Shown here one piece after another: positions 18,834 through 57,040 of a stretch of 64,000 nt of DNA. Origin of the DNA: Myroides oncorhynchi. GTDB lineage: Bacteria; Bacteroidota; Bacteroidia; Flavobacteriales; Flavobacteriaceae. The number at the start of each line of letters is the position of its first letter. The first letter of the stretch is position 1. The notes under the pieces were generated by a model. It was not told the origin of the DNA and did not search any database. It saw only the letters and a program-made list of their open reading frames with translations. The stretch is taken from NCBI RefSeq assembly GCF_020905415.1, contig NZ_JAJJMP010000001.1:3297501-3361500 (forward strand), read 5' to 3'. The translations under genes and the position numbers were made by a program.

Positions 18834-18932
18834 TCTTTTTATACAGATTGACTAAGCTTTATGCATAAACACAACTTTTGACTATGATCCTCTAAAAGTA
18901 TCCGAAAAATAAAAGTGTACAAATATAAATAT

Positions 18933-18974
18933 AAAAAAGCCTAACTATTTGATTATAAATAGTTAGGCTTTTTT
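18933..18974. terminator. strong bidirectional hairpin terminator
   Basis: AAAAAAGCCTAACTATTT pairs with its complement over 17-18 bp around a short loop, with A/T runs on both sides. It sits between the ISAon1 end and the integrase region, and may end a gene that is now lost. Confidence 0.75.
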
Positions 18975-19269
18975 ATTTGTGGAGTCGCCGAAAGATTTAG
19001 AGGGTAAAACATCTACAATATAACGAAAATAAAAATAGATAATTATTTGATTTATAGGTGTTTAGTTATATTGTATTAATGTTTTTATTTCACATATTAT
19101 GGCAAGAGCGTACAGAAAGCGTACAAGTTTTTCTATACAAATTTCTAGCATATTATTCTTTTAAATCTGTTTATGACACAACATACATTATTCTTCTAAT
19201 TTACTTAAAAAAGTTAAGTGATTTTCAATGACATATCTCTGATTGGCATCATTATACACTGTGTGCTTT
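18975..19269. other. ICE left-end region with direct repeats, candidate attachment area
   Basis: No gene is visible here. AGCGTACA occurs twice, at 19107-19114 and 19118-19125, an 11-bp period close to one helical turn, as expected for arm-type sites of a tyrosine integrase. TGGAGTCGCCGA near 18980 resembles the reverse complement of a tRNA 3' end, but no tRNA can be folded. The exact attachment core cannot be set without the other end. Confidence 0.35.
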
Positions 19270-19366: not shown

Positions 19367-20620
19367 ATGGCAGGAATTACCTTTCTATATCGTTCTTCTA
19401 AAGATAGGGCTAACTTAATTCTAAGATTAAGGTACACCTATAAAAACATTAAGCATACTTTAGATACTGATTCAAAAGTTGAAGTTACTAAAGAGTATTG
19501 GGAGAATATTCATCTAAAAAACAGCATCCGCGATATTAACAAAAAAAACGAGAAGCTTGTTCTTGAACAATATCTATTCAAAATAGAGAATTTTATATTA
19601 AAAGAAGTCGAGGAGATAGAGGCTAAACGTATTAGTAAAAGATGGCTTGATAAAAAGATCAAGTTATTTTATAATCCTTCTCTTGAGCAAAAGATACCTA
19701 CGCGTATATTTAAATATATCGACTATTATTTAGAATACCGTAAACATGAATTATCAAGTTGTCACATAAAAAAGTACACTACACTTAAAAATAAGATTAG
19801 AAGGTTGGAAAAGGCCTTTGATGAACAAATTCATTTTAACACCATCAATGAAAAGTTTAGAAAAAAATTTGAATCTTATTATAAAGAGAATGAGTATTCC
19901 CAAAATACTCTACAACGTGAATTTGTGAGTATAAAAACTTTATGTAATCACGCTAGAAGCTTAGGCGTTCATACTAATATGTTATATGATACTTTGACTT
20001 TTAAAAAATATAGAAATGAACATATCATTTTTTTTACAAAAGATGAACTTGATAAAATTTGCTATTATGAGTTTGAAGATGAATTCAAGTATTTAGAAAC
20101 TGCAAGAGATTGGCTTGTAATTAGTTGTTACACAGGACAACGTGTATCTGATTTTATGCGATTCAAAAGTGAGATGATTATGAAAATGGAAGGGCGAAAA
20201 ATTCTTCAAATTCAACAAAAGAAAACAAAGAAACATATTAGTGTTCCACTTCATTCTGAAGTTGAAAGGATATTGGATTATAGAAATGGTGAATTTCCTA
20301 AAGCACTTGTTGATCAAGAATACAATAAGCAAATTAAGGAATTAACGGAACTTATAGGTATTAATGACTTAGTACATGGCGGTATGGCTGTCCAAACTAA
20401 GCATGGTTATAGAAAAAAGGTAGTTAAAGCAGAAAAATATAACTTTGTAACTACTCATATTGGACGAAGAACATTTGCTACATTGTATTATGGAAAAATG
20501 CCTACGTCTTTGCTTAAAGATTTAACAGGGCATTCAACCGAAGCTATGCTGCTAACTTATATAGGCAAAAATAAATTAGAAAGTGCAGTTTCAGCATTTA
20601 AGTACATAGATACATTATGA
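19367..20620 (+). CDS. tyrosine-type site-specific recombinase (ICE integrase)
   Basis: The 417-residue protein has an N-terminal arm-binding region, a SAM-like core-binding domain (residues about 110-205) and a catalytic domain. Active-site residues are visible: Arg in TGQRVSDF near residue 262, His-x2-Arg in THIGRRTFAT near 365, His in LTGHSTEAM near 388, and the nucleophile Tyr in LLTYIGKN near 396. The phage_int_SAM_5 type is typical of Bacteroidetes conjugative elements. It reads into the element, so the attachment site should lie just upstream. Confidence 0.92.
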   Translation: MAGITFLYRSSKDRANLILRLRYTYKNIKHTLDTDSKVEVTKEYWENIHLKNSIRDINKKNEKLVLEQYLFKIENFILKEVEEIEAKRISKRWLDKKIKLFYNPSLEQKIPTRIFKYIDYYLEYRKHELSSCHIKKYTTLKNKIRRLEKAFDEQIHFNTINEKFRKKFESYYKENEYSQNTLQREFVSIKTLCNHARSLGVHTNMLYDTLTFKKYRNEHIIFFTKDELDKICYYEFEDEFKYLETARDWLVISCYTGQRVSDFMRFKSEMIMKMEGRKILQIQQKKTKKHISVPLHSEVERILDYRNGEFPKALVDQEYNKQIKELTELIGINDLVHGGMAVQTKHGYRKKVVKAEKYNFVTTHIGRRTFATLYYGKMPTSLLKDLTGHSTEAMLLTYIGKNKLESAVSAFKYIDTL

Positions 20621-20727: not shown

Positions 20728-21027
20728 ATGAAAAAAAGTAAAGAAATTTTGAAAAAATTAGATTATGTTTTGAGTTTGTTAGAGAGTAGGGTAGTGACTG
20801 GTATAAAAGAAGTTTTAAATATCGATGACTTACAAGAATACACAGGGTTTAAAAAATCATATATCTACAAACTTGTTCACACTAATGCTATCCCATTTTC
20901 AAAACCAAATGGCAAATTCCTCTATTTTCAGAAATCTGAAATTGATCAATGGTTGATCAAAAACAAATCATTAAGTGAAGATTCTATAAAGGAAAAAACT
21001 CAGAACTACACATTGAAGAAAATTTAA
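20728..21027 (+). CDS. helix-turn-helix protein, excisionase-like
   Basis: The 99-residue protein has a MerR-like HTH_17 domain: LNIDDLQEYTGFKKSYIYKLVHTNAIPF, then GKFLYFQKSEIDQWLIKN (residues about 30-77). This is the domain used by AlpA- and Xis-type proteins. It follows the integrase by 107 bp on the same strand and probably acts as a recombination directionality factor or a local regulator. Confidence 0.78.
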   Translation: MKKSKEILKKLDYVLSLLESRVVTGIKEVLNIDDLQEYTGFKKSYIYKLVHTNAIPFSKPNGKFLYFQKSEIDQWLIKNKSLSEDSIKEKTQNYTLKKI

Positions 21028-21057: not shown

Positions 21058-21084
21058 ACAAGGTTAGCTATTTGCTAACCTTGT
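21058..21084. terminator. intrinsic terminator, bidirectional
   Basis: ACAAGGTTAGC pairs with GCTAACCTTGT around a 5-base loop between the excisionase-like gene and the convergent HEPN-like gene. Confidence 0.85.
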
Positions 21085-21099
21085 CTTATCAGATAAGTT

Positions 21100-21648
21100 T
21101 TATTGTAATTTAAGAATTTGTAACTCAGTAATTGATTGTAAAATTCTTATTAATGGTTCTAATAATAATCTTTGTTGTTCTTGAAAATGTTTTTCTCCAT
21201 GTTGCATATTACATCTTACATTGTATATAGTACTTAAGATTGCTTGAACTTTTAAATTCACATCATCATTTTCCATATTTTGGGCAAGTTGAAGATCAAA
21301 GTCTTCTCGTGGAACCCCATCCTCTAAATTAATATGAAATACATTATTTTTAATTAAGTTAGAAATGGCATTAACATCCTTTATACAGTCTTGTTCTTCT
21401 AGCTGAATAAATATATTATTAGCACCATTGTATTGAATAACAAGCTTAGTAGCTTTTTCAAAATCTGAATATCGTGGTTTTTCTAGATTTTTGTTTGATT
21501 CTAAATCTTGATAAGATTCGTTAAAAAGCCTGTTGTAAAGAGTGTATAATGCAGTATACTTATCAAATAAAGTTATTAGGCTATCATCTTTATATTCTGC
21601 TATTTTATTTTTCCACGTTTCAATATAATTTTTAGTTTTCGCTTTCAT
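21100..21648 (-). CDS. HEPN-like protein, candidate RNase partner of the YobI-like NTPase
   Basis: The 182-residue, mostly helical protein is of no family I can name with certainty. Near the C-terminus it has Arg145-CNMQ-His150, then GEK. This fits the R-x4-6-H motif of HEPN domains, many of which are RNases in defence and toxin systems, and the following helix (EQQRLLLEPLIRILQSI) is also HEPN-like. It lies just downstream of the large NTPase gene on the same strand. No antitoxin-like small gene is next to it. The HEPN call is motif-based and moderate. Confidence 0.55.
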   Translation of the reverse strand: MKAKTKNYIETWKNKIAEYKDDSLITLFDKYTALYTLYNRLFNESYQDLESNKNLEKPRYSDFEKATKLVIQYNGANNIFIQLEEQDCIKDVNAISNLIKNNVFHINLEDGVPREDFDLQLAQNMENDDVNLKVQAILSTIYNVRCNMQHGEKHFQEQQRLLLEPLIRILQSITELQILKLQ

Positions 21649-21675
21649 CTTTAAGATAAATTAGTGTTTTTTATT

Positions 21676-21784
21676 CTAGTGTTTGAGTGCTTCATGATTA
21701 TCTTCTGATATATAATATAGTTGTTGATCTGCTGGACGATGTTTAGACTTATATTCTATTAAAGTATTGATTTTTAAGCGAGAG
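21676..21784 (-). other. out-of-frame C-terminal extension of the YobI-like gene
   Basis: After the stop of the large NTPase, the next frame stays open and protein-like: NSRLKINTLIEYKSKHRPAD and so on to EALKH, ending at 21676-21678. One extra G in AAAAGGACAT would explain the shift. Read through, the protein gains about 35 residues, and the gap to the HEPN-like gene shrinks from 136 to 27 bp. It could be a recent mutation, a sequencing error or programmed frameshifting. Confidence 0.5.
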
Positions 21785-24700
21785 TTATGTCCTTTTATGA
21801 TTTATACTATAGTGAGAGTCTTTATCTGAAAAAGATGATATATAACCTTCACTTACTAGAATATTTAAAAGTTGTTCATTATCAGTGTTCTTAGCAATTC
21901 TTGCTTTTCTACTCTTGTCAGTAATTTGAGCATATTCATTTCCTAAATTTTCTAAGTAATTCTCAATGAATACTAAATCATATTTTTTGTAGTTTTTGTT
22001 GAATAGTTTAAGGCGTTCAATAACAGAAATATGGCTGTTATTTAGAATTGAACTTAAAATTGTATCGTTAACAGTGAATTTACTATCTGTTATAAGTATA
22101 GAACTTAATAGTTTTAAATTATTATTTGTAGCAATCACATTATCAGGACATTGATTTAATATGGTCAGCTTTTCGGAATCATCTAAGAGAGAAGACTTCA
22201 GTATTAATTCTATATCGTCGCTATCAAATTCAAGCTGATTTAAGATTTTGAAGTAATTATTTTTTTTGGTTTCAAGTAGAAGAATATTCAATCCGTTAGA
22301 TTTTTCTTTTAGTGAATTAAAAGTTTCAACAATAGGATCTAAACAATTATTATTAATAAGTGATTTAATCTTATTATTAGATATTGTGTCAAAGTTTAAG
22401 TTACTATAACACCAAGGACTTGATTTACTTATTAAAGCATAAGAAGTGTCTTCTATCTGATCATTTTGAAGTATTTTTCGCCAAAATTTGAGATAAGTAG
22501 GTTTGGTAGTTTCGTCTGTTGATATTTTCGTTTTCGATAATTCTTCTGCATTTTCAATTATATTGATAAACTCAATAGTAGATTGTGTGATTTCTAGTTT
22601 AGTATCTTCTTCCTCACCAATATCTTGATTAGAATACTCATGTAATAAATTTTCCCAAGATGGAATCAATAGATTGTTTTCTAGTATTTTAGAGTATAGT
22701 TCAATATTATTAATTGTAGAAAGCTTACTAATCTTAGTTTTTACTTGGATAATAATGCGTTCCTTGTTTTTATTATTAATATTTTTATTATTAAGTAGTT
22801 CTACTAAAAAATTTTCTTTTTCATTTACATTACTAGTTATTTTTAAATATACGTTTTCTATGTATGTATTAATATTCTCCTCTATGTATCTAGCTAATTC
22901 TTCTACTTTTGAATTCTTAATTGCAAAAAAGTTAGAGTTATCAAAATCTACTTGATTAAACTCGCCAAATTTATTAATTATGGAAACTATCATATCAATA
23001 TTTATTTGATAATATTGATTCTTATAGATAAAGGAGAGCATTTCATCTGTAGAATTAGCAAAGTCAATTTGAGTAAAAAGGATATTTAATTCTTCAATAA
23101 TTTCTTTGAGTTTTTTGTGATTCTCAGTGATGTTTAAGAATAGAGGATTAGATAGCATGACTTTTGTAAAAGAAGATTGGTTTGAAATCTCAACTATAGC
23201 ATCTATGTTTCCATTATCAATGATACTTTTAAAGATTGAGTTTTTTAACTCATCTGTAAAGTCAACACTAGTTTCTATATATCCCCATATATTACCCCAT
23301 TTGTCGCATAGTATGTTTATGAAAGAATCTAGTTTTTGAGATGTTTCAAAATATCCTTTGATAAACTCAATAGATATATCTGACTCATCTTTAAGTTTGT
23401 TAAATATCGATTCTAATTGAGTTTTATATTTATTTTGATTAGTAAGTAAAAAATCTAAAAGATCATAGTTTAATATATACTCTGTCTGGAAGTCAAATAG
23501 GTTAATTTTTGAAAGTAATTTTTCAATTTTAGATAATTTAAAGTTGAAAGGTTGCTTTATTGAGTTTTTTACACTAATATGGAATTGATAGTCAGATCTA
23601 GTGATACTTTCTTCATGAAATAATGAAATGTAATCTATATAATCCTCTGCTATATAGTTATTTCTTAAAAGAATAATTATAAACTTAAGATTAATATCTT
23701 TGCTAATACTGATTTCATTGAAATTATTTGATTTTAAGAGTTCCGCTATTTTATAATTTCTAATTATAGTTTTTTGTTTGTCTAATTCGTTTATTTTATT
23801 TTTGAGGGAAGAAATTCTGCCGTTTTTAAGTTCTATAATCTCCTTTTCCTTTTCTGCGTAAGATTTGTTTGGGTCAATTTTTTCTTCAATCTCAGAAAAT
23901 TTTGTAGACAAACCTGTGGCTCTACTTAATAAACTATAACTTTGGGCATATAGTTTGTTGTATTGATAATTATCTGATGTAATGTATGAAAAGTTGATAT
24001 CTTCTACCATTTCATCGATTGATATAGTATCATTATTTATAATAAATGACCTAAACTCGGGTAAAGTATTCATTACCCTAAACAAATAGAGCAATCTTAA
24101 ATCTTTAATATTATCTATAAATAAGTTTTCATAGTCCCTAATTTGACTTTTAGCAACATTAATCTCTTCATTAATTTTATTCAATGAATTTTTTATAAAA
24201 ATTGCTTTTGAATTAAAAATCTCATATAGATTCCCTTCATTATAACTTAACTGCATAAAATCATTCGGATAGATGTTCTTGTAAGTTATTATAGCAAATA
24301 GTTTGTCTTGATTTAACGTGTCATTTAATTTTTTGCTATACAGATAAAACTCATTTGATATATTGTGAAGCAAGCGCATATCATCGATAAAAAAAGATAT
24401 GTCTTCAATCAAATTATCACTTAAATTAAAACCAAATTCTTTTTTCTTTTTCAGTAGTATTTCACTTGAATTTGATGAATTTATAACAGGTATTACAGGA
24501 ATGATAAAATCAAAAAACTTTGTTCGTTCTTTATCTGTAAACATATCATCACGAACAGCATAAAGAAAAACAATTTCTTTACGTTTGGTTTTTTCAGAGT
24601 TGTTTAATAGTAAGTTAAGTTCTCTTAGTTTGGTAAAGATTTCTGTTTCACGAAATCTATCCAAATCCTCAATTACTATCACATTATATGGTCTTATAGA

Positions 24701-25504
24701 AAAGAAATAAAGAATCTCATCTATGTGATGATTTAAGATAGATTTATTAAGTTGATCTCCAATACCTATTTCAGCATTTTGTATCTTAAATTTATTTATT
24801 GTGACAGCACTAATAATTCTGACTGATTTTAAAATGATAAAAAATAAGCCAATGATTATTATGACAATACCAAAATAATGAACAATGTCACAAATTTTAT
24901 TATAAAGGGGAGTATCTTTAAAGATAGTTTGAATAAAGTATGGATTGATGTAGTTATAAAGGGCTATTGCAAAAGCTAGATATCCTATAGAACGTAAAAA
25001 CAAATTAGAAGAACTATAGCTCTTTATTTTTTTAAATCTTGAATCAGGTATTTTTTTATCTTCTTCATGATAAAAAATTTGCTCCAAAATACTAATTTCT
25101 ATAAGTCTAAGTAGTTCCGTTTTATCAACTTTGATTTTTTTACCATTTTCATCAAATCTAGGCTCTTCATCTTTAAAAGTGGCTAATGAAATGTTTAAAA
25201 ATTTTAAATCCTTACCTTTATAATTATGTTGGAATGTCTTTAAAATAGTACTTTTCCCTGCGCCATATGGACCTGTTAAAGCGATGTTCTTTATGTCTTC
25301 ATTTTTACGATTCTCTAATGCCCATAATAATGCTTTAGAGTAATGACAATTCTCTTCTTTAGTAATGATGGGAGATAATGATGTATAACCTAACTTCTCT
25401 TCTTCTTTGTCAGTGATTTTATATCGAATTGATTCAAGAAACTTAATTATTGAATCAATTAGTTTAAGAAATTGTTCTTTTATCAGTTTAATAAAGGCTT
25501 TCAT
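21785..25504 (-). CDS. YobI-like P-loop NTPase, membrane-associated
   Basis: The 1239-residue protein begins with an amphipathic helix and has a P-loop GPYGAGKST near residues 78-86. Two hydrophobic segments follow (about 168-190 and 205-235), then Walker B in VIVIEDLDRF. Two membrane helices between Walker A and B are the mark of KAP/YobI-type NTPases. The remaining 900 residues are helical, AT-biased in codon choice (rich in Asn, Ile and Lys) and without a domain I can name. Such NTPases occur in defence settings. It is the first gene of an operon with the HEPN-like protein, close to the ICE integrase. The C-terminus may be frameshifted. Confidence 0.82.
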   Translation of the reverse strand: MKAFIKLIKEQFLKLIDSIIKFLESIRYKITDKEEEKLGYTSLSPIITKEENCHYSKALLWALENRKNEDIKNIALTGPYGAGKSTILKTFQHNYKGKDLKFLNISLATFKDEEPRFDENGKKIKVDKTELLRLIEISILEQIFYHEEDKKIPDSRFKKIKSYSSSNLFLRSIGYLAFAIALYNYINPYFIQTIFKDTPLYNKICDIVHYFGIVIIIIGLFFIILKSVRIISAVTINKFKIQNAEIGIGDQLNKSILNHHIDEILYFFSIRPYNVIVIEDLDRFRETEIFTKLRELNLLLNNSEKTKRKEIVFLYAVRDDMFTDKERTKFFDFIIPVIPVINSSNSSEILLKKKKEFGFNLSDNLIEDISFFIDDMRLLHNISNEFYLYSKKLNDTLNQDKLFAIITYKNIYPNDFMQLSYNEGNLYEIFNSKAIFIKNSLNKINEEINVAKSQIRDYENLFIDNIKDLRLLYLFRVMNTLPEFRSFIINNDTISIDEMVEDINFSYITSDNYQYNKLYAQSYSLLSRATGLSTKFSEIEEKIDPNKSYAEKEKEIIELKNGRISSLKNKINELDKQKTIIRNYKIAELLKSNNFNEISISKDINLKFIIILLRNNYIAEDYIDYISLFHEESITRSDYQFHISVKNSIKQPFNFKLSKIEKLLSKINLFDFQTEYILNYDLLDFLLTNQNKYKTQLESIFNKLKDESDISIEFIKGYFETSQKLDSFINILCDKWGNIWGYIETSVDFTDELKNSIFKSIIDNGNIDAIVEISNQSSFTKVMLSNPLFLNITENHKKLKEIIEELNILFTQIDFANSTDEMLSFIYKNQYYQINIDMIVSIINKFGEFNQVDFDNSNFFAIKNSKVEELARYIEENINTYIENVYLKITSNVNEKENFLVELLNNKNINNKNKERIIIQVKTKISKLSTINNIELYSKILENNLLIPSWENLLHEYSNQDIGEEEDTKLEITQSTIEFINIIENAEELSKTKISTDETTKPTYLKFWRKILQNDQIEDTSYALISKSSPWCYSNLNFDTISNNKIKSLINNNCLDPIVETFNSLKEKSNGLNILLLETKKNNYFKILNQLEFDSDDIELILKSSLLDDSEKLTILNQCPDNVIATNNNLKLLSSILITDSKFTVNDTILSSILNNSHISVIERLKLFNKNYKKYDLVFIENYLENLGNEYAQITDKSRKARIAKNTDNEQLLNILVSEGYISSFSDKDSHYSINHKRT

Positions 25505-25738: not shown

Positions 25739-25754
25739 ATCGTAATATTGCGAT
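25739..25754. promoter_or_regulatory. ArsR operator 1a
   Basis: ATCGTAATATTGCGAT, an inverted repeat with ATCG/CGAT arms, lies 20 bases before the first arsR start. An identical copy is at 26123-26138. The rest of the 25505-25774 gap holds no gene. Confidence 0.82.
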
Positions 25755-25774
25755 ATGTAATTAAGTATAAAACA

Positions 25775-26104
25775 ATGGGAGTAACAAAATCAGAATTATT
25801 TAGTGATAAGAAGAATAGGTTGTCGCTTATGTTTAAGGTTTTAGGGCATCCAGCAAGACTTGCAATTCTTCAGTATATTATCAATCAAGATGCTTGCATT
25901 TGTAATGATTTGGTAGAAGAGCTTGGATTGGCTCAAGCAACTATTTCACAGCACCTAAAAGAGCTTAAGAATAGTGGGCTAATTAAAGGAACAATTGATG
26001 GTAAATCAGTTTGTTACTGTATTGATGATGCAGTTTGGAATGAGTTTTTTGAGGAATTTAAAATGTTTTTTACTCAAAGAATCCAGTCAGAAGGTTGCTG
26101 TTAA
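25775..26104 (+). CDS. arsR: ArsR family arsenic-responsive repressor
   Basis: The protein has 109 residues from ATG 25775 (MGVTKSELF); a frame opening at 25748 would run back into the operator region. The winged helix contains the As(III)-sensing pair in DACICNDLVEELGLAQATISQHL (two segments), giving the Cys-x-Cys of ArsR proteins. A C-terminal Cys-Cys and CYC in the wing may add metal ligands. Identical 16-bp operators precede and follow it. It should repress the DUF6428-arsC-acr3-arsO run until arsenite binds. Confidence 0.9.
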   Translation: MGVTKSELFSDKKNRLSLMFKVLGHPARLAILQYIINQDACICNDLVEELGLAQATISQHLKELKNSGLIKGTIDGKSVCYCIDDAVWNEFFEEFKMFFTQRIQSEGCC

Positions 26105-26122
26105 TATTTTTTAATTAAAATC

Positions 26123-26138
26123 ATCGTAATATTGCGAT
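26123..26138. promoter_or_regulatory. ArsR operator 1b
   Basis: This is an exact second copy of the 16-bp site ATCGTAATATTGCGAT, between arsR and the DUF6428 gene. It implies a second ArsR-controlled promoter for the resistance genes. Confidence 0.82.
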
Positions 26139-26165
26139 TATAATAAAACAAAATAGAATTATAAT

Positions 26166-26618
26166 ATGAAATTATCAGAAGTAAAAGCAGTTTTAGGAAA
26201 TTTAGATCGAGTAGATTTTCAATTTGAAGATGGAACGTTTGTTGCAGAACACTTCCATGTAACAGAAGTAGGTCAGGTAACAAAAAAGTTTATTGACTGT
26301 GGAGGAACAATAAGAGAAGAGGTTAAGGTAAGTTTTCAATTGTGGAATGCAGATGATTATGAACACCGTTTAAAAGCAGGTAAATTGCTTAATATTATTC
26401 GATTGTCAGAAACAAAATTAGGTATTGTTGATGCGGAGATTGAAGTAGAAGTTCAAGGTAAAGAAACAATAGGAAAGTATTTCTTAGAATTTAATGGAAC
26501 TCACTTTTTATTAAAAAATACATTGACTGCTTGTTTAGCTGAAGATGCTTGTGGAATTACACCAAGTAATCAGGTAACTCAAACTAGTTGTTGTGATCCT
26601 AACTCTGGATGTTGTTAA
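26166..26618 (+). CDS. DUF6428 family protein of arsenic operons
   Basis: The 150-residue protein opens with KLSEVKAVLGNLDRVDFQFEDGTFVAEHFHVTEVG (two segments), the DUF6428 start. It has conserved CGG and QLW elements and ends in a cysteine-rich tail (TSCCDPNSGCC). DUF6428 genes are found next to arsR/arsC/acr3 in Bacteroidetes; no activity is established. The paired cysteines at the tail could bind As(III). Confidence 0.82.
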   Translation: MKLSEVKAVLGNLDRVDFQFEDGTFVAEHFHVTEVGQVTKKFIDCGGTIREEVKVSFQLWNADDYEHRLKAGKLLNIIRLSETKLGIVDAEIEVEVQGKETIGKYFLEFNGTHFLLKNTLTACLAEDACGITPSNQVTQTSCCDPNSGCC

Positions 26619-26635
26619 TCTTAAAAAAGTAAAAG

Positions 26636-27250
26636 ATGTATAAAACATTATCAACTACAATTAGCACTATACTTGAATCACAAATGATAAGTGATAGTAG
26701 AAAAGAAGCTTTGGCTCCTTTGGTGGCTTATATTCAATCTAAGGTTGATTCAAAATCTCCAATTCGAATCAATTTTATCTGTACACATAATTCAAGAAGA
26801 AGTCATTTGACTCAGATTTGGATGCAAGTAGCGGCTAGTTACTATGGCATTGCAAATGTTACTTGTTATTCAGGAGGAACCGAGCAAACAGCTATGTATC
26901 CAATGGTTGCTACAGTTCTGAAAGAACAAGGGCTTGATGTATTTAAAATTGCAGAAGGAGAGAATCCTATTTATGCTATAAAGTATGGTGATAATGAAGT
27001 TCCTATTATTGGTTTTTCTAAGAAGTACGATGCTGCTTTTAATCCAAGTGGTGATTTTGCAGCTGTAATGACTTGTTCACAGGCTGATGGAGGTTGTCCT
27101 TTTATAGCAGGTGCTGAGCGAAGAATCCCTATTACATTCGAGGATCCTAAGGCATTTGATGGAACAGCAAATCAACAAACAGGATATTTTAATCGAAGTA
27201 TTGAAATTGCAAGTGAAATGTTTTACATCTTATCACAAATTAAAAAGTAA
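26636..27250 (+). CDS. low-molecular-weight phosphatase-like arsenate reductase
   Basis: The 204-residue protein has the LMW-PTPase/ArsC P-loop CTHNSRRS (nucleophile Cys near residue 49). It has a longer insert than short ArsC proteins (SKKYDAAFNPSGDFAAVMTCSQADGGCPF), in which one or more Cys may serve as resolving thiols. It should reduce arsenate to arsenite in the cytoplasm, for export by the next gene. It lies 17 bases after the DUF6428 gene and 3 bases before acr3. Confidence 0.87.
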   Translation: MYKTLSTTISTILESQMISDSRKEALAPLVAYIQSKVDSKSPIRINFICTHNSRRSHLTQIWMQVAASYYGIANVTCYSGGTEQTAMYPMVATVLKEQGLDVFKIAEGENPIYAIKYGDNEVPIIGFSKKYDAAFNPSGDFAAVMTCSQADGGCPFIAGAERRIPITFEDPKAFDGTANQQTGYFNRSIEIASEMFYILSQIKK

Positions 27251-27253
27251 GTT

Positions 27254-28288
27254 ATGCAAGTTAGAATGAAATTTTTAGATCGATACTTAACCCTTTGGAT
27301 TTTCTTGGCTATGGGGATTGGTGTTTTGATAGGAAATGTATTTCCAAGTGTTTCTAATGTAATGGATAAACTGTCTATAGGAGCTACCAATATTCCGCTG
27401 GCTATAGGGCTAATCATCATGATGTATCCTCCACTGGCTAAGGTTGATTATAATCTATTACCAATGGCTTTTAAGGATAAGAAAGTACTAAGCTTATCTC
27501 TTTTCTTAAACTGGATTGTAGGACCTGTTTTAATGTTTGTTCTGGCTATTATTTTCATGCGTGATGAACCTGATTATATGGTAGGGTTGATTCTTATTGG
27601 TTTAGCCAGATGTATTGCAATGGTGATTGTATGGAATGATTTAGCAAAAGGTAATCGAGAGTATGCTGCCTTGCTGATTGCATTAAATAGTGTTTTCCAA
27701 GTGCTGTTTTATAGCTTCTTTGTTTGGCTTTTTATCAATGTATTACCTTCTTATTTTGGATTTGCTGATTATGCTATTTCAATTAAGATGAGCGATGTTG
27801 TACAAAGTGTGCTTATTTATTTAGGTATTCCATTTTTAGCTGGCTTTTTAAGTCATAAGTACCTAATTAAAATAAAAGGAGAAGATTGGTTTAAGCGCAA
27901 GTTTATCCCTTTTATTTCACCCTTTACTCTATATGCTTTACTATTTACCATTGTACTTATGTTTAGTTTAAAAGGAGAACAAATTGTTCAATTACCTATG
28001 CAGGTAGTTAAGGTTGCTATTCCACTTGTGATTTATTTTGTCTTGATGTTCTTTGTTAGCTTCTTTTTAAACAAGTCAATGAATGTTGATTATGATAAAA
28101 ATGCTGCTATTTCTTTTACTGCATCGGGTAATAATTTTGAATTAGCGATTGCGGTGGCGATTGCTGTATTTGGGATACATTCTCCTCAAGCTTTTGTTGG
28201 GGTTATCGGACCTTTAGTAGAAGTTCCTGTATTGATTTTACTGGTTCGTGTGAGTTTATGGATGAAAAAGAAATATTATACAAAGTAA
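27254..28288 (+). CDS. acr3: ACR3 family arsenite efflux transporter
   Basis: The 344-residue polytopic membrane protein has about ten helices. The ACR3 landmarks are present: [13 protein letters not shown] near residue 54, the [19 protein letters not shown] helix containing the essential Cys near residue 117, and [17 protein letters not shown] near residue 281. It exports As(OH)3 using the proton gradient. It is coupled to the arsenate reductase upstream. An ATPase ArsA is encoded further along the same operon. Confidence 0.93.
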
Positions 28289-28300
28289 AATATAGCCTTT

Positions 28301-29389
28301 ATGAGAAGTTTTGTAAATGATAATAAAGTTGATCAAAATGATTATGATTTAATCATTATTGGTGGTGGTCAAAGTGCTTTGGCTTGTGGGTTCTATTTAA
28401 GAAGAACACAAATAAAGTATTTGATTTTAGATCAGCAATCTCAACCAGGAGGAGCTTGGATTCACGGATGGGATTCATTGTCTTTGTTTTCTCCTGCTGA
28501 GTTTAGCTCTTTACCAGGCTTTATGTTTCCTAAATCAGAAAACTATTATCCTGTTCGAGATGAGGTTATTTCCTATATGGAAGATTATCAGTCTAAATAT
28601 GAACTCCCTGTAAAAAGATCTGTTCAGGTTACAGCAGTTTTAAAGCAAGAGGGAGGATTTACTTTAAAAACTTCGATTGGCGATTTCAAAGCAAAAGCAG
28701 TAATATCTGCTACAGGAACATGGGCTAGTCCTTTTGTTCCTGTCTTTAAAGGTTTAGATCAGTTTAAAAATGAACAATTACATTCTGCTTATTATAAAAA
28801 TGCTTCAGATTTTATAGAAAAAAAAGTATTGGTCATTGGTGGAGGTAACTCTGGAGCACAAATTTTAGCAGAAGTTTCCAAGTATACAGCTGTTACTTGG
28901 TCAACAATAGGAGCGCCAGCTTTTTTGCCTGACGATGTTGATGGTAGGGTACTTTTTGATGTAGCAACGCAAAAATATAATGACCAAAAGGCGGGTAATG
29001 ATCAGGCACAAGCAAAATATAATGTAAGAAGTATTGTTATGGTTCCCCCTGTTGTGGATGCTAGAGCAAGAGGTATTTTAAATAGTAAAGGAGAGGTTGA
29101 ACGCTTTACTGAAAATGGTGTTGTTTGGAAAAATGGAGAAGAAGAAAACTTTGATGTTGTTATTTGGTGTACAGGATTTAAGCCTGCCTTAAAGCATTTA
29201 GAACCTTTGGGTATTCTTCAACCAGATGGCAGAGTGAATACCAATGGTAATAGCAAAGTTGAAGGAATTAATGGTTTGTGGCTTGTAGGGTATGGTGATT
29301 GGACTGGTTTTGCTTCTGCAACATTAATAGGAGTAGGTAGGTCTGCTAGGAGTACAGTGGAAGAAGTTGTAGATTTTTTAAAGTTGTAA
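28301..29389 (+). CDS. arsO: ArsO-type flavin-dependent monooxygenase
   Basis: The 362-residue flavoprotein has an FAD-binding IIGGGQSALACGFYLRR loop near residue 20 and a second nucleotide loop VLVIGGGNSGAQILAE near residue 178. Between them is the ATGTWASPF motif that marks FMO-like enzymes. Its relatives in arsenic operons are named ArsO and are thought to oxidise arsenical substrates with NADPH. It follows acr3 by 12 bases. Confidence 0.85.
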   Translation: MRSFVNDNKVDQNDYDLIIIGGGQSALACGFYLRRTQIKYLILDQQSQPGGAWIHGWDSLSLFSPAEFSSLPGFMFPKSENYYPVRDEVISYMEDYQSKYELPVKRSVQVTAVLKQEGGFTLKTSIGDFKAKAVISATGTWASPFVPVFKGLDQFKNEQLHSAYYKNASDFIEKKVLVIGGGNSGAQILAEVSKYTAVTWSTIGAPAFLPDDVDGRVLFDVATQKYNDQKAGNDQAQAKYNVRSIVMVPPVVDARARGILNSKGEVERFTENGVVWKNGEEENFDVVIWCTGFKPALKHLEPLGILQPDGRVNTNGNSKVEGINGLWLVGYGDWTGFASATLIGVGRSARSTVEEVVDFLKL

Positions 29390-29409
29390 GAATAACTTTA
29401 GATAAATTG

Positions 29410-29425
29410 TTCGTATATTTACGAA
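29410..29425. promoter_or_regulatory. ArsR operator 2a
   Basis: TTCGTATATTTACGAA carries 6-bp arms TTCGTA/TACGAA around a 4-base spacer, 28 bases before the second ArsR start. The same arms recur at 29793-29808. It differs from the first ArsR site. Confidence 0.82.
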
Positions 29426-29452
29426 TAGATTAATTTGATAAATGATAAGGGT

Positions 29453-29773
29453 ATGTTGAAAAGAGACTTAACAGAAAAACAAGTAGAGATAGCAAGAATA
29501 ACGAAGGCTTTATCTCATCCTATACGAGTAGCCATTTTAGAAATGCTTGCTTCTCAGGAGTGTTGTTTTCATGGAGATATGTCAGAGGTATTACCTGTAG
29601 CAAAAAGTACATTGTCTCAACATTTAAAAGAATTAAGAGAAGCTGGCTTGATTCAAGGAACGATTAATTTACCTACAGTAAAGTATTGTATTAATAAAGA
29701 AAATTGGCGAATTGCTAAGCAACTATTAAACGAGTTTTTTGAAGATATTAAAAAGCCTTCTGAGTGCTCATAA
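29453..29773 (+). CDS. second ArsR family repressor
   Basis: The 106-residue protein starts at ATG 29453; an upstream TTG in frame is less likely because it lies 10 bases after the operator. The winged helix reads ALSHPIRVAILEMLASQECCFHGDM. Its Cys-Cys differs in spacing from the Cys-x-Cys of the first ArsR. The recognition helix is VAKSTLSQHLKELREAGL. Flanking TTCGTA/TACGAA palindromes suggest it controls itself and the arsF-arsG-arsD-arsA run. A distinct inducer, for example an organoarsenical, is possible. Confidence 0.88.
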   Translation: MLKRDLTEKQVEIARITKALSHPIRVAILEMLASQECCFHGDMSEVLPVAKSTLSQHLKELREAGLIQGTINLPTVKYCINKENWRIAKQLLNEFFEDIKKPSECS

Positions 29774-29792
29774 AAAAAATTTACATTTAATG

Positions 29793-29808
29793 TTCGTAGT
29801 TTTACGAA
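29793..29808. promoter_or_regulatory. ArsR operator 2b
   Basis: TTCGTAGTTTTACGAA lies between the second arsR and arsF, followed at once by a further half-site ATTACGAAC. It matches operator 2a in both arms. Confidence 0.82.
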
Positions 29809-30342
29809 TTACGAACATTAACAATTATTGAAACTAAAAAAATTAAATAACATCAAAATTAATACTTATGAAAACAACTTTTTTGAGCCTTATCTGTATG
29901 TTGGCTTTAGTTACTAGTTCATGTTCAGACAAGAAAAAGACACAAGAACAAGATGCGTTAGTTGAGTCGAGTATAGAAGCATTAGATCAAGAGCAGACTA
30001 TACAAGAGAAATCGGATAACACGATGGTTTATGTTTATTATTTTCATGGAAAGCAACGCTGTAAAACTTGTTTAGCAGTTGGAGATTTAACTAAGAAAAC
30101 TGTAGAAGGGGCTTTTGCTAGTAATGAGTTAGTGAAGTTTATTGAAGTAGATACAAGTGAAAAGCAGTATAGTGATTTAGTGGAAAAATATGAAGTGACT
30201 TGGAATGCACTTATTATTGCAAAGGGCGATGATTCAATTAATCTAACAGAAGATGCTTTTGCAACAGCACTGTATCCACCCGAGCAACCACATATTTCAT
30301 AAGCTAACGTAAGGTAGTAAGTTTGCTTCAAATAATAAATAG

Positions 30343-30633
30343 ATGAGCAAACAAGAAATAATGTACTCTCACGTAGAGGATTGGCAAGTAAGTGGATTAA
30401 CACAGACAAGATACTGTGAAAATGTAGGAATTAAGTTAGCAACATTTAGTTATTGGGTAGTCAAGTATAAGGCAGCGTCAATCCAATCAGTGGATAGCAA
30501 TTTTATAACTGTAAAAAAGGATCCAATAGCTAGTAGTATTCAAGAATATGAGATTATGTATCCTAATGGTGTAAAGTTACGAGTACATACAGATAATCTA
30601 AGTGAACTGTATTCATTAGTAAACTTAGTTTAA
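30343..30633 (+). CDS. tnpA: IS66 accessory protein TnpA-like
   Basis: The 96-residue protein has a helix-turn-helix start (EDWQVSGLTQTRYCENVGIKLATFSYWVVKY, two segments) typical of the first IS66 gene. It probably binds the element ends. Its stop overlaps the start of the next gene by one base (TAATG). Confidence 0.85.
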   Translation: MSKQEIMYSHVEDWQVSGLTQTRYCENVGIKLATFSYWVVKYKAASIQSVDSNFITVKKDPIASSIQEYEIMYPNGVKLRVHTDNLSELYSLVNLV

Positions 30634-30971
30634 TGTTTAGCTTGAGTAGTTCTCATCAATTTCATTTGTATAAATCAGCTTGTGATATGCGTAAGAGTTT
30701 TGATTCTCTGTGTGGTATTGTTCAAAACGAACTTAATCAAGTAGCTCATAATGGCAGTGTCTATGTCTTTATCAATCGCCGAGGTAATCAAATGAAGCTC
30801 TTACATTGGGAAACAGGTGGGTTTGTGTTATATCACAAACGCTTAGAGCAAGGTACCTTTGCTTTTCCGGTTCATAGTAAAACACAAATAAGTTGGAGTG
30901 ATTTAGTACTTATGATAGAAGGTATACAGGTTATAAAAAGTAGTCAAAAAAGAAGGTTTTTATTGAAGTAA
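30633..30971 (+). CDS. tnpB: IS66 family insertion sequence protein TnpB
   Basis: The 112-residue protein has the IS66 Orf2 pattern: ACDMRKSFDSLCGIV near residue 15, VYVFINRRGNQMKLLHWETGGFVLYHKRLEQG (two segments) in the middle and an SWSDL-like segment near the end. It is required together with TnpA and TnpC for IS66 movement, but its activity is not known in detail. Confidence 0.92.
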   Translation: MFSLSSSHQFHLYKSACDMRKSFDSLCGIVQNELNQVAHNGSVYVFINRRGNQMKLLHWETGGFVLYHKRLEQGTFAFPVHSKTQISWSDLVLMIEGIQVIKSSQKRRFLLK

Positions 30972-31020
30972 AATACGCGCATACCTTGTGTAAACGGGGC
31001 TTATGTCGTATATTTACTGT

Positions 31021-32595
31021 ATGGAAATAGACTTAGAAAATTTATCAAAAGAACAACTTTTGGCGCTTATAAAAAAGCAGTCAAAGACTATTTCTAAACA
31101 AGAGAAGGCAATCTCAAAGCAAGAACATAAAACATCTGTTTTAGAAGAGAAAAATTCTAAATTAGAAGATAAAAACACAGAATTAGAGCGTTTAGTCAAA
31201 CTACTTCAACGTATGAAGTTCGGTCAGAGTCGTGAACGCTTTGAAGACCCTAATCAAACTCAGTTACCCTTAGACGTTGAACAAGCAGTTTTAGAAGAAC
31301 AAGAAGAAGTAATCAAACAAGAGATTACCTACTCTCGTGAGAAAAAGAAACATCCAGGACGAGCTAAACTGCCAGATCACTTACTTGTAGAAGAAACACA
31401 TATCTATCCAGAAACAGACTACTCAGATATGATTTGCATTGGTAAGGAAATCACAGATATCTTAGATTACGTTCCAGGCTATTTTAAAATAAAGAGACTT
31501 ATTAGATATAAATACGCTACTAAAGATAAAGACAATACTAAAATTAGTATTGGCGATCTTCCAGAGCGAATTATTGATAAAGGAATAGCTTCAGAAGGAC
31601 TTCTATCAACAATATTAGTTGACAAGTACGTAGATCACCTTCCTTTATATAGACAGAAGCAACGCTTTTCCAGAGAAAACATCGATATAGCTTCTTCTAC
31701 AATAGATGGTTGGGTCGCTCAAAGTATGGATGCTTTAAAGCCTCTATATGAAAAGCTTGTGATGGATATCAAAAACGAAGGGTATCTTCAAGTTGACGAA
31801 ACCACCATCAAAGTTTTGGATGAGAAAAAGAAAGATAAGTCTCATCTTGGCTATTATTGGGTGTATCACGCACCTATATCCAAGCTCGTGATGTTTAATT
31901 ACAGTCCTACTCGTGCCAGTAGCGCTGCACTACCTATATTAGAAAACTTCAAAGGGTATCTGCAAACCGATGGTTACGCAGGGTATAAAGCCTATGGAAA
32001 TAAGTCAGATGTAACGCATCTTGGGTGCTGGGCACATGCTCGTCGTGAATTTGAAAGAGCTTTAGACAATGATAAAACAAGAGCTCAACATGTACTTGCT
32101 GAAATACAGAAGCTATATGCTGTGGAACGACAAGCTAAAGAACAAAACTTAACTCCACAGCAAATTAAAGAGCTTCGTCTAAAAGAGAGTTTACCTATTA
32201 TCAACGAACTTGGTAAATACATGTTTACTCAAATGAAACTTACCTTGCCTAAAAGTCAAATAGGTAAAGCCTTTGCTTACTCACAAACAAGATGGGATAG
32301 TCTTAGTGCGTACTTATACGACGGAAACTTACAGATAGACAACAATCTTGTAGAAAACGCTATTAGACCTGTAGCTCTTGGTCGTAAAAACTACTTATTC
32401 GCAGGATCACACGATGCAGCGCAAAGAGCAGCTATGGCGTATACGTTTTTTGCTAATTGTAAAAAGCACGATGTCAATCCATATCAATGGTTAAAATACG
32501 TATTGAAAAATATTCAATCCATAAACCACAAGAATATTACAGATTTATATCCTCATAACTACAAGAAACTTATCGTAGATAACGTAGAAGAATAA
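31021..32595 (+). CDS. tnpC: IS66 family DDE transposase TnpC
   Basis: The 524-residue transposase (ATG 31021; an in-frame ATG at 31003 is also possible) has an N-terminal coiled coil rich in Lys and Glu, then an IS66 zinc-binding-like and helix-turn-helix region. The catalytic domain shows VDETTIKVLDE (first Asp near residue 260), LQTDGYAGYKAYG (second Asp) and QIDNNLVENAIRPVALGRKN (Glu). GCWAHARREF is the usual IS66 motif. It appears complete. Confidence 0.94.
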   Translation: MEIDLENLSKEQLLALIKKQSKTISKQEKAISKQEHKTSVLEEKNSKLEDKNTELERLVKLLQRMKFGQSRERFEDPNQTQLPLDVEQAVLEEQEEVIKQEITYSREKKKHPGRAKLPDHLLVEETHIYPETDYSDMICIGKEITDILDYVPGYFKIKRLIRYKYATKDKDNTKISIGDLPERIIDKGIASEGLLSTILVDKYVDHLPLYRQKQRFSRENIDIASSTIDGWVAQSMDALKPLYEKLVMDIKNEGYLQVDETTIKVLDEKKKDKSHLGYYWVYHAPISKLVMFNYSPTRASSAALPILENFKGYLQTDGYAGYKAYGNKSDVTHLGCWAHARREFERALDNDKTRAQHVLAEIQKLYAVERQAKEQNLTPQQIKELRLKESLPIINELGKYMFTQMKLTLPKSQIGKAFAYSQTRWDSLSAYLYDGNLQIDNNLVENAIRPVALGRKNYLFAGSHDAAQRAAMAYTFFANCKKHDVNPYQWLKYVLKNIQSINHKNITDLYPHNYKKLIVDNVEE

Positions 32596-32703
32596 TTATA
32601 TCTCACAAGATGCACTTGCTCGGGGGCTTACACAGCACTAACAACACCAAAGGTATTAGAAGAGCTTATAGTTGAACAAGTAAACAAAAAACTTTAATGT
32701 TAG

Positions 32704-33402
32704 ATGGAATTACTACAACAATTAGTAGACAGTTCTGATATTCCAATAGTAACTGCGTTTTTATTGGGACTGATGACTGCTATTAGTCCTTGTCCCTTAG
32801 CTACTAACATTACAGCTACAGCTTATTTAAGTAAAGATATTACAGTTAAGCGTAAAGTATTATTTAATGGGCTGTTTTACACCTTAGGTCGTGCATTTAC
32901 TTATACTGTATTAGGAGTTATTTTCTATTTTGGAGCAAGTAAGTTTCAAGTAGCAAAACTATTGCAAAATGTAAGTGGTGTTTATTTGGGAATTGGATTA
33001 ATTCTTATCGGTATTTTAATGCTTGATATTATTAAATTAAATATACCAGGAGTAGGATCACTAAGTCAGAAGGTAAATCAAAAGAACTTTAAGAAGAATT
33101 ATTTCAATGCTTTTTTACTTGGTGTTTTATTTGCTTTAGCGTTTTGTCCTTACAGTGGAGTATTGTTTTTTGGAGTGATGATTCCTTTAATTATGGCGAG
33201 TGCTTCAGGATTATTATTAGCACCAGTTTTTGCTTTAGCAACAGGGTTGCCTGTAATCATCATAGCTTTTTTACTTGCTTACAGTGTATCTAATGTAGGG
33301 CATTTCTACAATAAGATGAAGAGTTTTGAAATTTGGTTCAGACGTATTATATCTGCTGTTTTTATTGTTGTAGGTGTTTATTATATATATGTGAATTTAT
33401 AA
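32704..33402 (+). CDS. arsG: ArsG family organoarsenical efflux permease
   Basis: The 232-residue membrane protein of the CcdA/DsbD transmembrane type has six or so helices. The Cys-containing motif AISPCPLATNITATAYL lies near residue 27 and the matching AFCPYSGVLFFG near residue 141. In arsenic operons of Bacteroidetes this type is ArsG, the exporter of trivalent aromatic aminobenzyl arsenicals. It lies 6 bases after the arsF stop, so IS66 is probably polar on it unless a promoter reads out of the IS. Confidence 0.86.
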   Translation: MELLQQLVDSSDIPIVTAFLLGLMTAISPCPLATNITATAYLSKDITVKRKVLFNGLFYTLGRAFTYTVLGVIFYFGASKFQVAKLLQNVSGVYLGIGLILIGILMLDIIKLNIPGVGSLSQKVNQKNFKKNYFNAFLLGVLFALAFCPYSGVLFFGVMIPLIMASASGLLLAPVFALATGLPVIIIAFLLAYSVSNVGHFYNKMKSFEIWFRRIISAVFIVVGVYYIYVNL

Positions 33403-33412
33403 AAAAATAGAT

Positions 33413-33655
33413 ATGGAAATAATAGTTTTAGGTACAGGTTGTGCCAAGTGTAAAGTAACTTTAGAAACCGTAGAATCTGTAGTAAAAGAATTAGGTTCTG
33501 ATATCAAAGTTACAAAGCAGGATGATATCATAGAGATTGTAAAATATAACATTATGTCTTTACCTGCTTTGGTTATTAATGGAGAAGTTACTGTAAAGGG
33601 GTATGTTCCATCAAAAGAAAAAGTAAAGGAATTAATTAAAAAACATCAGATATGA
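33413..33655 (+). CDS. small thioredoxin-family protein (possible ArsE)
   Basis: The 80-residue protein has a minimal thioredoxin fold with the redox pair in GTGCAKCKVT (Cys-x2-Cys near residues 9-12) and a cis-Pro in MSLPALVING near residue 47. It matches the small redox-active disulfide proteins. Its place after arsG, with arsF upstream, makes it the likely ArsE-like electron donor of the organoarsenical reductase. It overlaps arsD by 4 bases. Confidence 0.8.
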   Translation: MEIIVLGTGCAKCKVTLETVESVVKELGSDIKVTKQDDIIEIVKYNIMSLPALVINGEVTVKGYVPSKEKVKELIKKHQI

Positions 33656-33984
33656 AAAATGAAGTAAAGATTTACGATCCAGCTTTATGTTGTCCAACAG
33701 GGCTTTGTGGGGTTAATATTGATCCTGAATTAATGCGTATTGCTGTTGTAATAGAAAGCCTAAAGAAAAAAGGCATTTTAGTTGAGCGATTTAACTTACG
33801 TGACAATCCTCAAGTTTATGTAGACACTAAAGTAGTTAATGATTTTATCCAAAAAGAGTCTATCGATAATTTTCCTATTACTACCTTAAATGGAGTAATT
33901 GTTCTCACTAAATCATATCCTAGTAATAAGCAAATTTCAGAATGGCTTGAAGTGTCAGAATCTGATTTGATTGTTACAAAATAA
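33652..33984 (+). CDS. arsD: arsenite metallochaperone ArsD
   Basis: The 110-residue protein has the conserved vicinal cysteines near residues 13-14 (ALCCPTGLCGVNIDPEL), plus the Cys near residue 19 required to hold As(III). ArsD hands arsenite to the ArsA ATPase. The C-terminal cysteine pairs of plasmid R773 ArsD are absent, as in most homologues. It overlaps the thioredoxin-like gene and precedes arsA. Confidence 0.93.
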   Translation: MKNEVKIYDPALCCPTGLCGVNIDPELMRIAVVIESLKKKGILVERFNLRDNPQVYVDTKVVNDFIQKESIDNFPITTLNGVIVLTKSYPSNKQISEWLEVSESDLIVTK

Positions 33985-34015
33985 TCTAACCAAATATTCA
34001 ATTTCAATTTAGTTT

Positions 34016-34035
34016 GACATACCTAAATGTATGTC
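34016..34035. promoter_or_regulatory. inverted repeat upstream of arsA
   Basis: GACATAC and GTATGTC are 7-bp arms around a 6-base spacer in the 87-bp gap before arsA. It could be a regulator site or an mRNA hairpin. It does not match either ArsR operator in this window. Confidence 0.45.
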
Positions 34036-34071
34036 GAACAGGAATTGTATTGAATAATAAAAACAGTAGTT

Positions 34072-35802
34072 ATGAGTAATTTTAAACTATATAATCCCTA
34101 TAATGAAGGATTTACAAAATATATTTTCTTTACAGGTAAAGGAGGAGTAGGAAAAACATCAATTGCATGTGCTACTTCTTTAAACTTAGCAGACAGTGGG
34201 AAAAATGTATTACTTATTAGTACAGACCCTGCATCAAATTTGCAAGATGTATTTGATATACCTCTGAGTAATAAGGTAACTAAGTTAAAAGATATTCCAA
34301 ATCTTTCTATTTTGAATTTAAACCCAGAGCAAGCAGCTTTAGAATATAAAGAATCCATAATAGGACCTTATCGAGGAAAGTTACCTGAGGCTGTTTTATT
34401 TAATATGGAAGAGCAACTATCAGGATCATGTACAGTGGAGATTGCTTCTTTCAATGAATTTGCGGATGTAATTACCAATAAAGAGAAACACGATTTATAT
34501 GACCATATTGTGTTTGATACAGCACCAACAGGACATACACTTAGAATGTTACAACTACCAGCAGCATGGAATACATTCATTGATGAAAATACAACAGGTG
34601 TTTCTTGTCTTGGGCAATTGTCAGGATTAGGTGATCGTAAAGAGGTTTACGAGCAGGCAGTTAAAACATTGAGTGATAAAAATAATACAACTTTATTTTT
34701 GGTGAGTCGTCCAGATGAAACACCATTAAAAGAAGTAGAGCGTTCATATAAGGAGTTACTTGAGTTAGATATACAATCTCAACGTTTAATCATCAATGGA
34801 GTGCTAGAGAATTTTGATCAGGATGATTCTATTTCAAGTAAGTTGTATAAACGCCAGCAAAGTGCCTTAGAAAATAGAAGTAAAAGGCTTCTTGATATTC
34901 CAACCTATTATGTTCCATTAAGATCGTATAATATGACTGGAATTGATAATATTAGAAATATGCTTATTTCTAATACAAGTGCTGTTTTGACTGAAAATAG
35001 CTTAGACAAAAGCGAGTTACAAGATATTGATGTATTAATAGAAGACCTTTTCATTTCTAAGAAAAAAGTGATTTTTACAATGGGTAAAGGAGGTGTAGGG
35101 AAAACAACAATAGCTGCTCGAATCGCTAGAGGACTGGTTAAAAAAGGAGTTAAGGTTCACCTAAGTACAACAGATCCAGCCAATCACTTAGAGTATGTAA
35201 ATACACAGGTGGAAGGGCTTACTGTTAGTCATATTGATGAGAAGAAGGTGTTAGAAGCTTATAAAGAGAAAGTTTTAGCTAAGGCAAGACAAACTATGGG
35301 GAACAGTGATTTAAGTTATATCGAGGAAGATTTACGCTCTCCTTGTACACAGGAAATAGCTGTTTTTAATGCTTTTGCTGAGATTGTAGCTATAGCAGAC
35401 CATGAAGTAATTGTTATCGATACAGCACCAACAGGTCATACTTTATTGTTATTAGATTCAACTCAAAGCTATCACAAAGAAGTAGAGCGTACACAAGGAG
35501 ATATTAGCGAGGCTGTTCAGAATTTATTACCACGTTTAAGAAATGAACAAGAAACAGAAGTAGTTATTGTTACGTTACCAGAAACAACGCCTGTATTTGA
35601 AGCACAACGCTTACAAGAAGATCTTGCAAGAGCAGGTATACACAATAAATGGTGGGTAATAAACTCAAGTTTATATCTAACAGATACAACAAGTACTTTC
35701 CTGAAGGATAAAGCAAAAACGGAAGTACAATGGATTAATAAAGTCAATGAACTTTCTAAAGGTAATTTTGTTGTAATACCTTGGATGGAAAAGGTTGAAT
35801 AA
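34072..35802 (+). CDS. arsA: arsenite-stimulated ATPase ArsA
   Basis: The 576-residue ATPase has two homologous halves. Each has a deviant Walker A (GKGGVGKTS near residue 23 and GKGGVGKTT near residue 340) and a switch motif DTAPTGHTLR or DTAPTGHTLL. As(III)-binding Cys residues appear in the usual places (Cys near 122, Cys near 181 and Cys near 423). ArsA powers or gates arsenite export. There is no ArsB in this operon, so its partner is probably the ACR3 pump encoded upstream. Confidence 0.94.
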   Translation: MSNFKLYNPYNEGFTKYIFFTGKGGVGKTSIACATSLNLADSGKNVLLISTDPASNLQDVFDIPLSNKVTKLKDIPNLSILNLNPEQAALEYKESIIGPYRGKLPEAVLFNMEEQLSGSCTVEIASFNEFADVITNKEKHDLYDHIVFDTAPTGHTLRMLQLPAAWNTFIDENTTGVSCLGQLSGLGDRKEVYEQAVKTLSDKNNTTLFLVSRPDETPLKEVERSYKELLELDIQSQRLIINGVLENFDQDDSISSKLYKRQQSALENRSKRLLDIPTYYVPLRSYNMTGIDNIRNMLISNTSAVLTENSLDKSELQDIDVLIEDLFISKKKVIFTMGKGGVGKTTIAARIARGLVKKGVKVHLSTTDPANHLEYVNTQVEGLTVSHIDEKKVLEAYKEKVLAKARQTMGNSDLSYIEEDLRSPCTQEIAVFNAFAEIVAIADHEVIVIDTAPTGHTLLLLDSTQSYHKEVERTQGDISEAVQNLLPRLRNEQETEVVIVTLPETTPVFEAQRLQEDLARAGIHNKWWVINSSLYLTDTTSTFLKDKAKTEVQWINKVNELSKGNFVVIPWMEKVE

Positions 35803-54971: not shown

Positions 54972-55499
54972 TTAACTGTTTTTAAATACATGACCATTTT
55001 CATAAGTATAATCACCTATGAAAAGATCTCTAGCAAAGCTTTCATAATCAAAATATGATTTTACAAAATCAGATAAATCATAACATTCATCAATGATTTG
55101 GTAAGCGAAATCTTCTTCACTGTTATAATATCCTTGATAATCATCTTCAAATGATTCAAATAACGAGTCTATATCATCAGATTCAATATTGTAATTACCT
55201 ATGCTTACCCAAGCTGAAAAAGCTTCTAAGGTTTTATAATCTAAATCTGATACTTTTTCAATGATTGAAAAAATATTTTCTGAAAGACTACTTTCTGATA
55301 TTAACTCAGATGGGATGTTTTCCCAATCTTGAAACATAAATTCAGGATCTGTTTCATCAGCGTGTAGTTCTAAGCAGAACTCATAAAACTCTTCAATAGA
55401 GCTAAAGTTATTAAGCTCTATCCAATCTCCTTTAATTGAACCATTGTTATACTTAGCATAAGTACCAACATAAACTTTTGAGTGCATTAAATTTTCCAT
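54972..55499 (-). CDS. ardA: antirestriction protein ArdA
   Basis: The 175-residue acidic protein has the ArdA pattern: VYVGTYAKYNNGSIKGDWIEL near the start, EEFYEFCLELHADETDPEFMFQDWENIP in the first half, and a C-terminal helical half with clustered acidic residues. It mimics B-form DNA and blocks type I restriction enzymes, so the element survives entry into a new host. It is divergent from the SIR2-HerA operon. Its leader carries a UUCG-capped hairpin at 55515-55526. Confidence 0.9.
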   Translation of the reverse strand: MENLMHSKVYVGTYAKYNNGSIKGDWIELNNFSSIEEFYEFCLELHADETDPEFMFQDWENIPSELISESSLSENIFSIIEKVSDLDYKTLEAFSAWVSIGNYNIESDDIDSLFESFEDDYQGYYNSEEDFAYQIIDECYDLSDFVKSYFDYESFARDLFIGDYTYENGHVFKNS

Positions 55500-57038: not shown

Positions 57039-57040
57039 AA

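Follow-up and report, generated by a model that had tools for sequence, protein, structure and literature searches.

A Tmn-type NTPase gene and a small, very probably HEPN gene adjoin in an integrative and conjugative element of Myroides oncorhynchi, probably as separate passengers

We analyze here a stretch of 64,000 nucleotides (nt) from a contig of Myroides oncorhynchi (the window), and in it two adjacent genes on the minus strand, one for a P-loop NTPase of 1239 amino acids (aa) (21785..25504), and one for a 182-aa protein that is very probably of the HEPN type (21100..21648). Both are cargo of a 72-kb integrative and conjugative element (ICE) at a tmRNA gene, in the site next to its integrase. 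A first-pass annotation of this DNA had proposed them as a candidate new defence pair, in which the NTPase would detect infection at the membrane while the HEPN protein serves as the ribonuclease (RNase) effector. By sequence, the NTPase is Tmn, a phage defence that is already catalogued. And because the two genes are found apart in the other genomes sampled, we take them for two separate passengers and not for a two-part system. The reading that we consider probable is that the ICE carries two independent anti-phage cargo genes side by side, with Tmn working alone and the small protein being a separate HEPN RNase.

The linkage between the two genes can be examined from either side. On the Tmn side, we fetched 103 Tmn loci and dropped one, L046, in which no Tmn open reading frame (ORF) was found, while keeping its genome among the 95 Tmn-bearing genomes considered below. 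For 15 loci the flanks cover about 1.5 kb, and for the others up to 6 kb, less at contig ends; the genes are our own ORF picks and do not come from a gene finder. No relative of the small protein appears in the flanks of the 102 other Tmn loci (0/102), a redundant set in which, judging by equal neighbours, L095 appears to be the same as L085, L107 as L069, and L105 as L089. These searches used the single sequence on 2,471 ORFs of the first 95 loci, and a profile on 2,535 ORFs of all 103, for which the best E-value is 0.11. The closest Tmn relatives (L008, L009, L015–L020, L050 and L103), which are 52–69% identical over the best segment, also have flanks without the small family. On the side of the small family, Tmn is found at none of its four other full-length loci, and in none of the three whole genomes that hold the family, while the same query matched 8 of the 299 genomes of the family draw. 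Among the 95 Tmn-bearing genomes, a redundant set as well, one holds a 66-aa piece of the small family, near the end of another contig. A second match in these genomes (G1158, E = 1.1e-4) lies inside a 319-aa frame, and we read it as chance. The first-pass annotation had set its own check, namely whether any other genome has the two genes as neighbours, and in all that we sampled the outcome speaks against the pair.

A relative of the window ICE carries Tmn in another position. In Myroides odoratimimus (L017), a Tmn gene adjoins genes for TraK (124 of 207 aa), TraM and TraN that are 82–94% identical to those of the window ICE. This Tmn is 61% identical to that of the window and stands at a different place in the related ICE, without the small gene, and a profile search of the L017 genome found no member of the small family.

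The genes that do neighbour Tmn are of mixed kinds. A same-strand ORF of at least 90 aa lies within 300 nt downstream of Tmn in 41 of the 102 other loci, and among the remaining 61, 6 had under 400 nt of downstream sequence. In at least 4 of the 102, the gene beside Tmn is of the HEPN type (Pfam on 10 chosen neighbours), though never of the small family: Cthe_2314-HEPN in L060, and Abi_2 in L108, L055 and L076, the last two carrying near-identical neighbours. Abi2 is placed within HEPN (PMC3710099). Beyond the motif there is little to see in the Tmn neighbour of L064 or in that of L019, which has a sub-threshold match to Swt1-HEPN (E = 0.027). HEPN-type genes are occasional Tmn neighbours, as expected in defence islands. 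The arrangement in L060, from Pedobacter, resembles ours in having the HEPN gene 100 nt downstream of the Tmn gene, but that gene belongs to a different family (PF18730, E = 3.7e-11), and we do not accept it as homologous to the window protein, the similarity being at chance level (24% over 120 aa; blastp E = 8.1, phmmer E = 0.56, profile E = 2.9). Searching viral contigs with the L060 protein found none. In the literature on Tmn with HEPN, and on HEPN with KAP NTPases, no such pair is found among the matches listed, which does not prove its absence.

The identification of the NTPase is straightforward. It aligns almost end to end with the PADLOC model of Tmn (PDLC02220; E = 1.8e-85; residues 32–1148 on 18–1185 of the 1273 positions in the model), and it matches the Pfam family YobI-ATPase (PF20693) with E = 8.5e-119. 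Since the match to a catalogued system is near full length, there is no novelty in the NTPase half. In an alignment of eight Tmn sequences, G78, G81, G83, K84 and S85 of the Walker A motif (GPYGAGKS, residues 78–85; 25250..25273, minus strand) are invariant, as are E279, D280, D282 and R283 of the Walker B-like motif (IEDLDRF, residues 278–284; 24653..24673, minus strand). Two hydrophobic segments are inserted between these motifs of the P-loop domain, as in other Tmn proteins, a weak one at residues 168–186 (24947..25003, minus strand; Kyte-Doolittle 1.40 over 19 residues), and a clear one at about residues 209–236 (24797..24880, minus strand; Kyte-Doolittle up to 2.19), and it was fair to call them two membrane segments. 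Tmn is known as a single-gene system, and the window NTPase locus likewise shows no conserved partner gene. Published work places Tmn among the KAP-family NTPases, gives it two transmembrane domains of an unusual kind, and reports that it can inhibit phages T2, P1, phiVi and phiX (PMC11846954). The window protein differs in that it matches the model of other Tmn proteins at only the E-value above, and its anti-phage activity is predicted from sequence. Tmn is found in 7 of 298 other genomes in the family draw, in 8 of 100 others in the genus draw, and at 8 loci in viral contigs; the scan of genome contigs yielded at least 359 loci, of which the best 80 were taken.

The small ORF is a genuine gene and not a chance ORF. 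The reasons are that no 182-aa ATG ORF arose when the 4.8 kb were simulated 300 times with a first-order Markov model (the longest had 109), that its own frame is the only one with a positive coding score (+0.27 bits per codon, the five other frames ranging from −0.16 to −0.51), and that it has four divergent full-length homologues. Residues R145, C146, N147, H150, G151 and K153 are invariant in these five full-length members, and they include both ends of the Rx4H motif RCNMQH that had been noticed earlier (R145 to H150; 21199..21216, minus strand). The Arg and the His are also kept in two distant relatives, L155 and L141 (16% identity). In the structural model, one helix (residues 130–150) carries the Rx4H motif and is followed by the last helix (153–181), a placement that we judged by the description of the superfamily in PMC3710099. 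Among the solved folds listed, the closest to the model are HEPN toxins of MNT/HEPN pairs (8–10% identity for the top toxins), and folds outside those listed remain possible. A single-sequence AlphaFold2 model was set aside (pLDDT 43.6). Given the invariant motif, the model and the closest solved folds, a HEPN identity is very probable for the small protein, in agreement with the earlier assignment. The family has no match in Pfam, PADLOC, NCBIfam or PHROGs; by sequence it is new to the libraries searched, yet within the known HEPN superfamily. Of the novelty that had been claimed for the pair, the small family is what remains. A profile search of PDB sequences with the family gave 8 matches, all with E-values of 0.086 or worse (designed proteins, Cas9, yibA), and a viral structure library compared to the model gave nothing at E ≤ 0.001.

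Compared with the one in 95 Tmn-bearing genomes, members of the small family are found in 3 of 394 other genomes in the phylum draw (the phylum, Bacteroidota, being inferred from relatives), and the class draw, with 3 of 394 besides the window's own genome, returns two of those genomes again plus the distant relative L155. One member (L149, 7962–8540) lies on a prophage-like contig, between the genes for the small and large terminase subunits, where a cargo gene would not usually be expected. Another (L150) adjoins PDC-M68A/B with a VirB4-type conjugation gene close by, a third (L151) has in its stretch a TraG that shares 54% identity with that of the window over 299 aa, and a fourth (L152) is located after an integrase. 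At L158, a piece of the family is near OloB and a PDC-M68B-like gene. These genomic settings suit a mobile, free-standing defence gene. In tblastn searches of plasmids and phages, neither the window small protein nor a cut copy of its prophage relative had any match, and single-protein scans of genome and viral contigs gave none that was confirmed. In the 299 genomes of the family draw, the window small protein has five weak matches besides itself (E-values 0.001–0.006), which lie inside frames of 297–944 aa, and we read them as chance. We also observe a wide range of small proteins, from viruses or prophages, that share the pattern [VI]RxNLFHGxK (L118–L145; 28 loci by pattern, of which 17 were aligned). 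Six of them (L120, L123, L134, L135, L137, L141) have no Pfam match up to E = 0.1, and by sequence the set is possibly a further uncatalogued HEPN family.

How would two such genes act independently? An infection cue would switch the membrane-inserted KAP NTPase of Tmn, and phage growth would stop with Tmn acting alone. The small protein would be a single-domain HEPN RNase from an uncatalogued family travelling on ICEs, on a prophage-like contig and in defence islands. We infer, from what other HEPN effectors do, that it forms a homodimer in which two R145/H150 pairs meet, that it stays inactive until infection, and that it then cuts RNA independently of metal, leading to cell arrest or death. 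The closest model for its action that has been worked out is Tha, a HEPN RNase of S. aureus prophages, which is also carried on mobile elements, has the Arg-x4-His motif (R265NSIMH270 in Tha-1), and is switched on by phage tail proteins (PMC11087260). On the other hand, Tha-1 has 301 aa with its HEPN domain at 184–296, while the window family has about 185 aa, and the two are set side by side by description only. The HEPN-TM system, a HEPN protein with a membrane protein (PMC11087260), is similar to our locus by name only.

The alternative closest to the original proposal is that the two genes form a functional pair, at least in this element, Tmn being the membrane sensor of infection and the HEPN protein its RNase effector. 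They are on the same strand with a gap of 136 nt (21649..21784, minus strand), and judging from this spacing could be co-transcribed; moreover, the mechanism of Tmn is described as unexplored (PMC11846954), and HEPN-type genes of other families do occur beside it. Set against the absence of linkage in either direction in our sample, the closest Tmn relatives without the small family in their flanks, and an ICE of the same family that carries Tmn without the small gene, we regard a functional pair as unlikely. A variant is that the HEPN protein has been recruited as the Tmn effector in this ICE, and that Tmn loci in general may pick up interchangeable HEPN-type neighbours (the small family here, Cthe_2314-HEPN in Pedobacter, Abi_2 in others). 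If true, this would give Tmn, an NTPase without known output, an RNase arm, and we hold it to be about as doubtful. The gap itself says little about promoters. It has no TAnnTTTG box, and the same scan finds none upstream of Tmn, so it is uninformative on whether the small gene has its own promoter; sigma-70-like sites are equally uninformative, as they occur at the shuffled level (45 vs. 41.1). We rejected as a gene a 40-codon open stretch in another frame (21676–21798), overlapping the end of Tmn, for which tblastn against the fetched loci gave nothing below E = 2.2.

Two further alternatives concern the small protein alone. It could be an inactive or regulatory HEPN that binds RNA or nucleotides, or an accessory that restrains Tmn, and not an RNase. 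The residue directly after the motif Arg is Cys in all five full-length members, instead of the polar residue (mostly N, D or H) that is typical of HEPN but does not define it, and no Ex3[KR] motif is seen by eye in helix 2 of the window protein (residues 24–51), where an acidic residue is a trait of many HEPN families, though not all (PMC3710099). But inactive HEPN families lose the motif wholly or in part (PMC3710099), and here Arg and His persist in the five full-length members and in distant L155 and L141; we find an inactive protein improbable. It could also be an orphan toxin remaining from a toxin-antitoxin pair, as the closest solved folds would suggest. Unlike in MNT/HEPN (HepT) pairs, we see no MNT antitoxin gene beside the window gene, and the identity to the top toxins is low, as given above. 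By eye, with no dedicated search, there is no recurrent small partner at the four other full-length loci, and we consider an orphan toxin very unlikely.

The location of the two genes just inside an ICE integrase holds up. The tyrosine integrase (19367..20620, plus strand; Pfam Phage_int_SAM_5, E = 1.2e-8) is followed by an AlpA/HTH_17 excisionase-like gene (20728..21027, plus strand; HTH_17, E = 1.2e-9). This gene converges on the small gene, and an 11-bp perfect inverted repeat between them (21058..21084) is a possible shared terminator, at which a terminator consensus scan found nothing. The ends of the ICE are an imperfect direct repeat (alignment score 133 vs. at most 32 in 200 shuffles), with the left copy at 18894..18991 and the right copy at 91172–91281 counted from the window start, 72.3 kb downstream and outside the window. 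The ICE thus spans 72.3 kb, from 18894 to 27.3 kb past the window end, and its right repeat overlaps the 3′ end of the tmRNA gene (L160:7269–7664, minus strand). A tmRNA gene is a common integration site. Genes for a coupling protein and a TraG-type ATPase are present in the ICE.

The defence setting that had been supposed is borne out by other cargo. The same ICE carries Gabija (48236–50999; PADLOC E = 1.6e-204 for GajA and 6.6e-132 for GajB), and a SIR2 and HerA pair (55833–58786; PADLOC E = 1.1e-85 and 2.2e-172). Because synergy between Gabija and Tmn has been reported by Wu et al. (as cited in PMC13427033 and PMC12735699), and both are in this ICE, it may hold a synergistic defence set. 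An ArdA antirestriction gene (54972–55499; Pfam E = 1.5e-30) is also present on this defence-rich element. Past the window end by 1.4–4.8 kb, three minus-strand genes (65368–68808 from the window start) include an SMC-like ATPase, and by eye they look like further defence cargo of the ABC-three-component type. Also by eye, 25748–35802 holds arsenic-resistance-like genes (ArsR-type regulators, a transporter, an ArsA-like ATPase) split by an IS66-like element.

With the large gene already catalogued, the new system that had been claimed shrinks to a neighbourhood. What the locus offers is the small protein, which at about 185 aa and with an invariant predicted active-site motif would be an easy test case for whether a minimal HEPN protein can defend alone, and for what switches it on.

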